From assembly GCA_027002625.1 (NCBI GenBank), contig JALWZJ010000155.1:1-40685 (forward strand): a stretch of DNA of 40,685 bases, given 5' to 3'. The DNA is from Campylobacterales bacterium. GTDB lineage: Bacteria > Campylobacterota > Campylobacteria > Campylobacterales > Nitratiruptoraceae. Below are positions 22,032 to 25,911 of the stretch, piece after piece (positions within the stretch are counted from its first letter, which is position 1; each line of letters starts with the position of its first letter). The translations under genes were made by a program, and so were the position numbers. The notes beneath the pieces were generated by a model. It saw nothing but the letters and a program-made list of their open reading frames with translations, was not told where the DNA came from and searched no databases.

Positions 22032-23567
22032 GTGGCACTGGCACTCAAATATCGTCCCAAACGTTTCGAAGACCTCATAGGCCAAGATGCCGTGAGCCAG
22101 ACGCTCATGCGAGCGCTCGAGACCAAAAACCTCTCCCACGCCTATCTTTTCAGTGGTCTAAGAGGTAGTGGCAAGACCAGTACAGCCAGGATCTTTAGCA
22201 AATGCCTCATCTGCGACGAGGGGCCCACGGCCACTCCGTGCGAGCGGTGCGACAACTGTAAAGCTGCCGACGAGGGACGTCATATCGATATCATCGAGAT
22301 GGACGCGGCCAGCAACAGAAAGATCGACGATATCCGAGAACTCATCGAGCAGACCAAATACAAGCCATCGAGTGCCAGATACAAGATCTTCATCATCGAC
22401 GAGGTCCATATGCTCACAAAAGAGGCATTCAATGCCCTACTCAAAACCCTCGAAGAGCCGCCAGAGTATGTGAAATTCATCCTGGCCACCACCGACCCTT
22501 TGAAGCTGCCGGCTACGATCCTCAGCCGTACCCAGCATTTTCGCTTCAAAAAGATTCCCCAGCAAGATATCTTGCACCATCTCGAATTCATCCTCAACAA
22601 AGAAAACATCTCCTTCGAACCCCAGGCTCTGCAGATATTGGCCAGAAGCGGCGGAGGGAGCCTCAGGGATACTCTCACACTACTCGATCAAGCCATCACC
22701 TTTTCAAAAGGGCATGTGGATGTCCAAAGTGTGACGAAGATGTTGGGTCTTGTGGATCCAAAGAGAATCGAAGAGCTTTTCGATCTGATTTTGGCCAAAA
22801 GAAAAGAGGAGCTCTTGCAAATCGTTCAAAAGCTGCAAGAGTACGAAGCGGGAATGATTTTGGATGAGATGATCATCTATCTCAAAGAGCAGCTCTTTTC
22901 GAAAAATCCCAAATTTTCCACTATGCTCTACGAGCGCTTTTTCAAGATTTTAAGTGACGCGAAGGGACTACTTTTTTATAGTAGTGACGACGAATTCGTG
23001 CTGACTCTCACGCTTCTCAAGCTCATGGAGGCTACAAAAGTCAAAGAGATCGAAGAGCTCATCGCCCAATTCGAAGAGGAGACCCCTTCCAAACCGTTAC
23101 CATCCAAGCCTACCGTCCCTGAGCGGGTCCCACCAACACCTCAATCTACACCCAAACCAAAGGATCGCTTCGCCAAACTCATAGAAAAGCTCTACGAGAG
23201 AAACTACGAGCTTGGGGAGTGCTTCGAAAAAAGTGTGGAGTTTGTGGATTTTAGCGATGGAGTGCTTAGATGGATAGCCAATCCGCCAGCCGAATGCAAA
23301 GAGAAGCTCAAACACTCCTACCCCACCATCCGCCACTTTGTCCAAGAGATCTTCGGTATAGATACCAAGATCCAAAAGGTAGACCCGCCAAAAAAGTGTG
23401 AAGAGCCCTCCTCGATGATCGAGGAGGCGGAGTTTGGTAGCTGTATCCAGCAAAAGGCTGGACTGAGCGCCCCCACAAGTGAAGGGGATATCCTTAGCGC
23501 CCCTATGGTCCAAAAGGCCAAAGAGCTCTTTCGGGCCAAACGGGTCGTAGTCAAGCCGAAGGTTTAA
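22032..23567 (+). CDS. dnaX: DNA polymerase III subunit gamma/tau
   Basis: ALKYRPKRFEDLIGQD, GLRGSGKTSTARIFSKCL, Zn cysteines, IDEVHMLTKEAFNALLKTLEEPP; GTG start. Confidence 0.96.
   Translation: MALALKYRPKRFEDLIGQDAVSQTLMRALETKNLSHAYLFSGLRGSGKTSTARIFSKCLICDEGPTATPCERCDNCKAADEGRHIDIIEMDAASNRKIDDIRELIEQTKYKPSSARYKIFIIDEVHMLTKEAFNALLKTLEEPPEYVKFILATTDPLKLPATILSRTQHFRFKKIPQQDILHHLEFILNKENISFEPQALQILARSGGGSLRDTLTLLDQAITFSKGHVDVQSVTKMLGLVDPKRIEELFDLILAKRKEELLQIVQKLQEYEAGMILDEMIIYLKEQLFSKNPKFSTMLYERFFKILSDAKGLLFYSSDDEFVLTLTLLKLMEATKVKEIEELIAQFEEETPSKPLPSKPTVPERVPPTPQSTPKPKDRFAKLIEKLYERNYELGECFEKSVEFVDFSDGVLRWIANPPAECKEKLKHSYPTIRHFVQEIFGIDTKIQKVDPPKKCEEPSSMIEEAEFGSCIQQKAGLSAPTSEGDILSAPMVQKAKELFRAKRVVVKPKV
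23376..23427 (+). promoter_or_regulatory. Candidate programmed -1 ribosomal frameshift element in dnaX
   Basis: AAGG (23376-23379), in-phase A_AAA_AAG (23390-23396), -1 frame GTG TGA stop (23396-23401), stem CCTCCTCG/CGAGGAGG (23407-23414 / 23420-23427) with loop ATGAT. Confidence 0.6.
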
Positions 23568-24022
23568 TTTATACAAATCATTCCTCTGTCTTTGTAGCAT
23601 GTACGATGGGCTTCCACATTGTCACTATTGATAACTCTATACGGTATCTTGTCAAGATGCAGATCAAACTCGATTACCTGGCTTGCAGACCAGATTTCAT
23701 ATCGTCCACTGATATCTTGGGGCTGTTTGAGTGGAATAGTGTTTTGAGTATGGCATCCGTTGCCAGCCATGTCGTATTTGGTCAGTTTCACTCCGGCATC
23801 TTGTAAAATATCGAGCCCAATGACACTGGCGCCCATGCCATCTTCGGACAAAAAGAAATTGTGAGAGGATGGAATCATACCGGTAGTATGCAGATCATAA
23901 TCCAATACATAGATATTATCTCCAGCATCTACGTATAAAGCCACACCAGAATCATAAAGAGGCAAATCCACATTTATTAGGAGAACGAGTGGTGAGCCGG
24001 CGTATGGCTTGGATATGACCAT
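23564..24022 (-). pseudogene. C-terminal fragment of the frame-disrupted secreted protein
   Basis: Directly continues the upstream - strand ORF in the +1 frame; DSGVALYVDAGDNIYVLDYDLHTTG has beta-propeller-like character. Confidence 0.5.
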
Positions 24023-25811
24023 ACTCGTTCATTACCAATATATTGGCTTCTTGGGTGGAGGTATTGGGAGAACTTTCGCTAAAAGTGGCGTAGATTCTGC
24101 CATCTTTTTCGATAGCGTACTGACCGTATAACTCACGATTTAAATTTTGTCTATTATACAGCGTAGTAGCCCATTGCAGTTCCCCGTGTGGATCCATCTT
24201 GGCCAATAGAAGGCTTCTTGGCGCCACCCCTTCTATAGTGTTGTGATTGGATCCTAAGACCACCAATCCATCCTGTACCTGGACTATGGAGTCATATTTC
24301 CACTCTTCGGTATTTGGTCTTTCTTGTTGATAAAGCGTCGCTCCATCATAGGCCTTCGCCCATTTGACATTTCCATTGGCGTCAACCACAAAAGCATAAG
24401 CCATAGAAGCTTTCAACCTTCCAACTACTTGACTGGATGAACTTGAATAGTGATCGCCACATCCGCAATCGGAGCTACTTTGAGGAGTTGGAAGGACCCG
24501 AGTCGTATAGCGTGTAGCAGGTAGCGAAAGCTCGAGCTCACCATAGCAGATCGCCTCTTGGGAGCGTAACACCGTGCAACTGATCAATCTCGTACCGCTG
24601 TGGAGTCTATCTATACCTGGTTCATTCAAAAAATAGAGATTGAGATATCGAGTATTTCCATATCGATCCTTGATACCGACGATATTCCCATATGAGACGG
24701 AAAATCCATGACGATAGTAGTTGGTATTCAATAAAAATCGATCCGATCCCATAGAAAGGAGATGGACCCCCTCTATCATATCCTCTACATCAACTGGTAA
24801 AATCGCTCGAGACCAGAGGATTTGTGAATCTTTGCCAATCTTCGTTACAATACCGGCACTTACGATATGTACACCATCCAGACTTGGTCGATCCAACGCT
24901 CCTCCTAATACATATCCATCCTGCAAATGGACTCCACTCATATAGTACAACGGCAATACATGGTGTTCTACAAGGTTTTTATTGACAAAAAAGGTCTCGT
25001 AGCTGATCATATCGAAGCAGCCACCTATCGTAGAACTATAACTACTTGACCATCCACTGCTCCATGATGAACTCGAAATACTCGACCAGCTACTCCAGGA
25101 GCTGGAAACACTACTGGACCCTCCACTACTCCAAGAACTGGAAAAGCTGTTAGACCAACTGGAGTTTCCTCCACTTGAGCCAGACCAACTACTCGATGAG
25201 CTATAGAAGCTACTGGACCAACCAGACCCACTTTGACAATTCAGTCCATAGCTTCCCGTATAGACAAACCGCACTTTCATACCGGCCGGACCTTCGGTCC
25301 CCGGCAGCAATACACTCGATGTTTGAAAATCTACACTCATATCGATGAGCGGATCGGCACGTCCATCACAATCAAGATCGAGATACAAAAAGCTTCCATT
25401 CGATGCCTGCCCACTAAGCTTGTAGACCTGGGCTGTCCCCCAAGGAACGAATGCCCACGAAAACCTCGAGTCATATTCTCCGGGAAACCCCAAAAAGACA
25501 AAGACTCCTGCTGGATGGTCTGCATCCAGATCAGCCAGGGCTGAGGTGGGAATAGGTTGCCATCCAAATACATCGGTAGCACTGGATGGACGACCCATGA
25601 GCCGATAAAATTTTTGATCAGGCAGATCGTAATAGACCCAATCGTTCTTCTGGATATAACCATCCTTATTGAAATCGTATTGATAAAACACTCCATTGAG
25701 ATCGAAAGGTTTGGAAATCATATACTTATAGAGGCACTCAAGATAGTTTTGATCGATGCTGCATGCCCAGCTTGCTACTGTAGAGATGAGAAGTCCAAGG
25801 AGCTTTTTCAT
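23952..25811 (-). CDS. Secreted beta-propeller-like protein with EF-hand-like loop and Ser/Trp/Gly-rich linker
   Basis: ATG 25811 with AAAGGAT RBS; signal peptide MKKLLGLLISTVASWAC; DFNKDGYIQKND; (W)SSS-rich tract; GNVKWAKAYDGA and GELQWATTLYN repeats. Confidence 0.65.
   Translation of the reverse strand: MKKLLGLLISTVASWACSIDQNYLECLYKYMISKPFDLNGVFYQYDFNKDGYIQKNDWVYYDLPDQKFYRLMGRPSSATDVFGWQPIPTSALADLDADHPAGVFVFLGFPGEYDSRFSWAFVPWGTAQVYKLSGQASNGSFLYLDLDCDGRADPLIDMSVDFQTSSVLLPGTEGPAGMKVRFVYTGSYGLNCQSGSGWSSSFYSSSSSWSGSSGGNSSWSNSFSSSWSSGGSSSVSSSWSSWSSISSSSWSSGWSSSYSSTIGGCFDMISYETFFVNKNLVEHHVLPLYYMSGVHLQDGYVLGGALDRPSLDGVHIVSAGIVTKIGKDSQILWSRAILPVDVEDMIEGVHLLSMGSDRFLLNTNYYRHGFSVSYGNIVGIKDRYGNTRYLNLYFLNEPGIDRLHSGTRLISCTVLRSQEAICYGELELSLPATRYTTRVLPTPQSSSDCGCGDHYSSSSSQVVGRLKASMAYAFVVDANGNVKWAKAYDGATLYQQERPNTEEWKYDSIVQVQDGLVVLGSNHNTIEGVAPRSLLLAKMDPHGELQWATTLYNRQNLNRELYGQYAIEKDGRIYATFSESSPNTSTQEANILVMNEYGHIQAIRRLTTRSPNKCGFASL
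25031..25233 (-). repeat. Low-complexity Ser/Trp/Gly-rich coding tract (WSS repeats)
   Basis: Encodes SGSGWSSSFYSSSSSWSGSSGGNSSWSNSFSSSWSSGGSSSVSSSWSSWSSISSSSWSSGWSSSYSST. Confidence 0.9.
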
Positions 25812-25911
25812 AGTAGATCCTTTCGGGTTTACTCGGGCCCTAAAATCATTACGCTCCCTTATTTTCTTAAAGTTTAATTCAAGAATAAAAGCGCTATGTA
25901 TGAAAATCATA

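Follow-up and report, generated by a model that had tools for sequence, protein, structure and literature searches.

It is an old question whether gamma, the short form of the clamp-loader subunit DnaX, is an oddity of enterobacteria and Thermus or meets a general need. The mechanism is already known, as recoding of dnaX of both the E. coli and the Thermus kind is established (PMC5009743, PMC1088944, PMC3711429), and a 2012 review described frameshift signatures as absent from the dnaX of most bacteria (PMC3290774). A search of the open-access literature, with subscription journals outside its reach, found no report of dnaX recoding in Campylobacterota. We analyzed a 40,685-nucleotide stretch of a Nitratiruptoraceae genome (the window; contig JALWZJ010000155.1) whose dnaX gene contains an E. 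coli-like set of frameshift elements. Judging from these elements, this deep-sea relative of Nitratiruptor appears to make two DnaX forms from one gene, and its dnaX offers a clean test because just 55 residues would be lost.

A putative −1 frameshift cassette in dnaX

The window dnaX (22032-23567, + strand, as are all elements of the site) begins with GTG at 22032 and encodes a full-length tau-type product of 511 amino acids that matches NCBIfam PRK08451 (E 2e-231) and the Pfam families DNA_pol3_delta2 and DNAX_ATPase_lid. Codons 454-455 (AAA AAG), together with the last base of the preceding CCA, form the slippery heptamer A_AAA_AAG (23390-23396). In the −1 frame the heptamer is followed by GTG (23396-23398) and then by a TGA stop (23399-23401), one codon past the slip, giving a predicted product of 456 amino acids that ends in PPKKV. 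A Shine-Dalgarno (SD)-like AAGG lies 10 nt 5' of the heptamer (23376-23379), and an 8-bp stem, presumed to be stimulatory, begins 10 nt 3' of it, with the 5' arm CCTCCTCG at 23407-23414 and the 3' arm CGAGGAGG at 23420-23427. In an alternative fold, which has a single bulged C, the structure starts at 23405, 8 nt past the heptamer. The preliminary description of this locus had proposed the cassette; its coordinates for the gene, heptamer, AAGG, GTG TGA and stem were all correct on re-checking, and reading both frames bore out its product lengths of 456 and 511 residues.

The likely explanation is programmed −1 ribosomal frameshifting as in E. coli dnaX, which would give a gamma-like protein beside tau; the cassette is real and probably functional. 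A ribosome with Lys-tRNA(UUU) on AAA AAG would be stalled by the downstream hairpin, and the 5' AAGG would aid the slip by pairing with the 16S rRNA tail. The ribosome would move back one base onto AAA AAA, add valine and terminate at TGA. One mRNA would yield the 511-residue tau and a 456-residue form that retains the ATPase domains and a folded C-terminal domain without the flexible tail. The slippage itself, its frequency and the stability of the short form are what we infer from this arrangement.

The likeness to E. coli dnaX extends to the same gene, an identical heptamer, a downstream stem-loop and a −1 TGA one codon on (AGTGA in E. coli, TGTGA in the window). E. coli also has an SD-like element, GGGAG, at about the same distance (10 nt 5'), the 4-nt AAGG of the window being shorter. 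The two systems differ in the spacer (5 nt in E. coli, 10 nt in the window), in the stem, which in the window is a simple 8-bp helix (−15.5 versus −19.1 kcal/mol on 36 nt), and in the extent of the cut, which drops 55 C-terminal residues here and about one-third of the protein (domains IV-V) in E. coli.

In E. coli, A_AAA_AAG is slippery because the cell has tRNA-Lys(UUU) and no CUU isoacceptor (PMC5009743, PMC6787027). The nearby complete genome of Nitratiruptor sp. SB155-2, with 41 tRNA matches, has two tRNA-Lys genes, both with anticodon TTT (UUU) and none with CTT, so that this near relative shares the E. coli condition. The genome of the window itself has one tRNA-Lys(UUU) and no CUU among the tRNAs found, a list that is incomplete.

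As genomic background for the site we took 173 non-overlapping long open reading frames (ORFs), drawn from the window together with 20 further contigs of its genome and amounting to 58,346 codons. They contain 23 in-frame A_AAA_AAG sites; in two the −1 frame closes after a single codon, and three have an SD-like tetramer 5' of the heptamer. The lowest folding energy among the 23 belongs to dnaX (−15.8 kcal/mol over 45 nt), which is also the one site that combines an SD-like element, a strong hairpin and an immediate −1 stop. Separately, a gene identified by eye as L-aspartate oxidase-like (L226:853-2340, − strand) carries an in-frame A_AAA_AAG near its end with a −1 stop one codon on; its hairpin is weak and there is no SD-like element.

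Conservation of the heptamer and stem in relatives

In the two nearest species (L003 and L004, 83-84% identity) the stretch CCG CCA AAA AAG TGT GA is identical to that of the window, against a codon identity of 0.53-0.56 elsewhere at positions encoding the same residue. A third relative (L025, genome G008) reads CCA AAA AAG TGC GAT GAG and reaches its −1 stop after two codons, so that all three keep the heptamer and a −1 stop within one to two codons; the codons of the SD-like element (CAA AAG G) are also identical in the three. The window, L003, L004 and L025 thus have in common heptamer, hairpin and a TG[TC]GA context. In the DnaX tree G008 (row L019) pairs with L008 (support 97/92), apart from the trio of the window, L003 and L004; therefore the heptamer has either been kept with repeated losses or gained twice.

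Conservation of the heptamer throughout the genus was rejected, as most members have PPKSC or PPKE at this place. Some relatives carry a weaker shift-prone motif at the same codon, namely A_AAG in L007, L008 and L009 and C_CCA_AAA in L006, with a −1 stop after two to three codons. In E. coli no tetramer shifts more readily than A_AAG, whose rate reaches a few per cent when the stimulator is strong (PMC4066793). Nothing comparable was found at the heptamer codon in L005, L010, L021 and L013. The conservation test proposed in the preliminary description favoured the cassette within limits: heptamer, codon context and −1 stop were retained in the two closest species and in a third on a separate branch, and the heptamer was absent from most other family members.

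Since the stem encodes the conserved SSMIEE motif, its strength was judged against random synonymous recodings of the same residues. The window stem exceeded these with p 0.0025-0.004 over 36 nt and p 0.02-0.026 over 45 nt. The E. coli dnaX stem gave p 0.037 in the identical test, so a proven stimulator need not outscore the window stem. Among relatives, p was 0.016 in L025, 0.053 in L003, 0.11 in L004, 0.04 in L005, 0.018 in L006, 0.008 in L009 and 0.013 in L007, and the stem was not significant in L008, L010, L021, L013 and other genera. A stem stronger than synonymous codons would give is thus seen in the window and in some relatives, and is only marginal in L003 and L004. Strict coupling of the stem to the heptamer was rejected, as L005, L006, L007 and L009 have the stem without the heptamer. 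In computed folds of the 36-nt segment the stem remained the best structure up to 65 °C. Known Nitratiruptor are moderate thermophiles, and this heat stability matters if the host is alike.

Predicted consequence of the truncation

An AlphaFold2 model of residues 378-511, built from 47 relatives, gave a confident fold for residues 378-450; beyond it the chain is disordered up to a short helix at the C-terminus. The folded domain (23163-23381), present in both products, has blocks in the order HHEEHHE with predicted local distance difference test (pLDDT) scores mostly of 89-94. The heptamer codons sit at the border of fold and tail. The tail missing from the short product (codons 457-511, 23400-23564) has low pLDDT apart from the helix and contains the conserved SMIEE and PMVQKAKELF, which recur across the order as SM-E--E and P-VQKA-ELF-AKK.

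The folded domain could not be equated with domain V of E. coli tau: there was no PDB sequence match and no Foldseek match at E <= 0.001, the weak structural matches being to DnaA domain I and DciA folds. Pfam DUF3646 matched weakly in 16 of the 47 relatives.

E. coli tau is unstructured past residue 617 unless bound to the polymerase alpha subunit, and removal of its last 25 residues leaves alpha binding negligible, as in gamma (PMC11470591). By analogy, the tail lost here probably binds alpha, and the 456-residue form should load clamps but not hold polymerase. Two caveats had been attached to the cassette at the outset, the long spacer and the small truncation, and both are weakened: E. coli tau loses alpha binding with only 25 residues gone. 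The 10-nt spacer is still longer than the 5 nt of E. coli.

Weighing alternative explanations

Several observations count against a programmed frameshift. The heptamer is present at this codon in just 4 of about 20 family members examined, a patchy distribution; the stem is only marginal in the heptamer carriers L003 (p 0.05) and L004 (p 0.11), and it codes for the conserved SSMIEE motif; the spacer measures 10 nt, or 8 nt in the alternative fold, where E. coli has 5 nt; and the upstream AAGG is short and in part dictated by Lys-Val codons.

The strongest rival, which we regard as unlikely, is that the elements coincide by chance: CCA AAA AAG would simply encode Pro-Lys-Lys within a linker rich in Lys, the stem would be a by-product of the Ser and Glu codons (TCN/GAR) of SSMIEE, and slippage would at most reach background level. 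Genome codon usage yields CCA AAA AAG for about 7% of Pro-Lys-Lys, a −1 TGA arises readily in linkers rich in Glu and Asp, most of the genus lacks the heptamer, and L005 and L006 still have the stem in its absence. Coincidence accounts poorly for dnaX being the sole site of 23 with every element, for a stem that outdoes synonymous recodings, for the same context in two separate branches of the tree, and for the order-wide enrichment of slip and stop at the same border described below.

Transcriptional slippage, in which an RNA polymerase copying the A run slips and adds As to the mRNA as in Thermus thermophilus dnaX, is very improbable for the window gene. At the corresponding position relatives do carry A8-A12 runs that are soon followed by a −1 stop (L015, L137, L161, L178 and others) and would fit this mechanism, and the A9-A12 versions there are a likeness to Thermus. 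The window run, however, is of six As, against homopolymers of about 8-9 As or more in Thermus-type slippage (8-12 in many relatives) and usually eight or more in known cases (PMC3711429), and polymerase slippage would leave the stem and SD-like element without a role; a six-A heptamer with a hairpin and SD-like element fits ribosomal slippage. Overall, the device in the window is like that of E. coli and its position like that of Thermus. In Caulobacter, as cited in PMC5009743, gamma is made by proteolysis of tau, which likewise gives a short DnaX form from one gene but involves no recoding.

Least probable of all is that the stem serves another purpose (mRNA stability, or a pause while the newly made domain folds) with the heptamer incidental: species without the heptamer do retain the stem, but at that codon most of them have a different shift-prone motif together with a −1 stop.

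A possible common truncation border across Campylobacterales

Across 154 Campylobacterales dnaX genes we counted A_AAA_AAR sites that lie no more than 16 codons past the end of the folded domain and have a −1 stop in the next four codons. This combination was found in 23 genes, compared to 12.0 expected from synonymous shuffles (maximum 19 of 200) and 3.8 expected from shuffles of linker order. Limited to runs of nine or more As, the same count gave 16 genes (6.7 expected, maximum 11). With one gene per 75%-identity cluster, A_AAA_AAR with its −1 stop at the border was present in 14 of 87 (6.7 expected, maximum 11 of 500). The slip sites are spread over many families, including genes of 51-59% GC (L077, L178, L181), and many other families are without any. 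Significance of the poly-A runs gene by gene was rejected, most being expected from Lys-rich linkers and a preference for AAA (P ~0.05-0.9); the signal is a property of the group, in which only the pooled count and the position are unusual.

Runs of A9-A12 with a prompt −1 stop just past the folded domain occur in the dnaX linkers of many Campylobacterota families (L015, L044, L052, L057, L077, L127, L137, L143, L146, L147, L152, L161, L163, L178, L180, L181 and L201). They resemble Thermus-type sites and are candidates for transcriptional slippage. Sulfuricurvum (L036, L037, L038, L042) and family f4 (L112, L113, L115, L116, L117, L119, L122) have the conserved DnaX tail and no slip site of the kinds searched for in the linker; these lineages may produce tau alone or rely on a different device.

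It is possible, and we propose it tentatively, that Campylobacterota commonly have DnaX in two forms with one fixed cut border, at which the device has repeatedly been swapped (heptamer with hairpin, A8-A12 runs, weaker tetramers, or nothing). Textbooks may greatly underestimate how widespread the short form is. If so, a conserved cut point reached by differing slip devices would be an argument that a clamp-loader subunit unable to hold polymerase has a general role, and the devices would form a natural series showing that what selection preserves is the short product rather than the mechanism. Such a series at one border is a more interesting lead than the single cassette.

Neighbouring reading frames

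Next to dnaX on the − strand (23564-25910), a 652-residue Ser-rich protein (23952-25910) overlaps a 152-residue ORF (23564-24022) in another frame. Neither had a Pfam match and the overlap contains no obvious slippery run; the two may be parts of a single gene split by a frameshift or by an error in the assembly.
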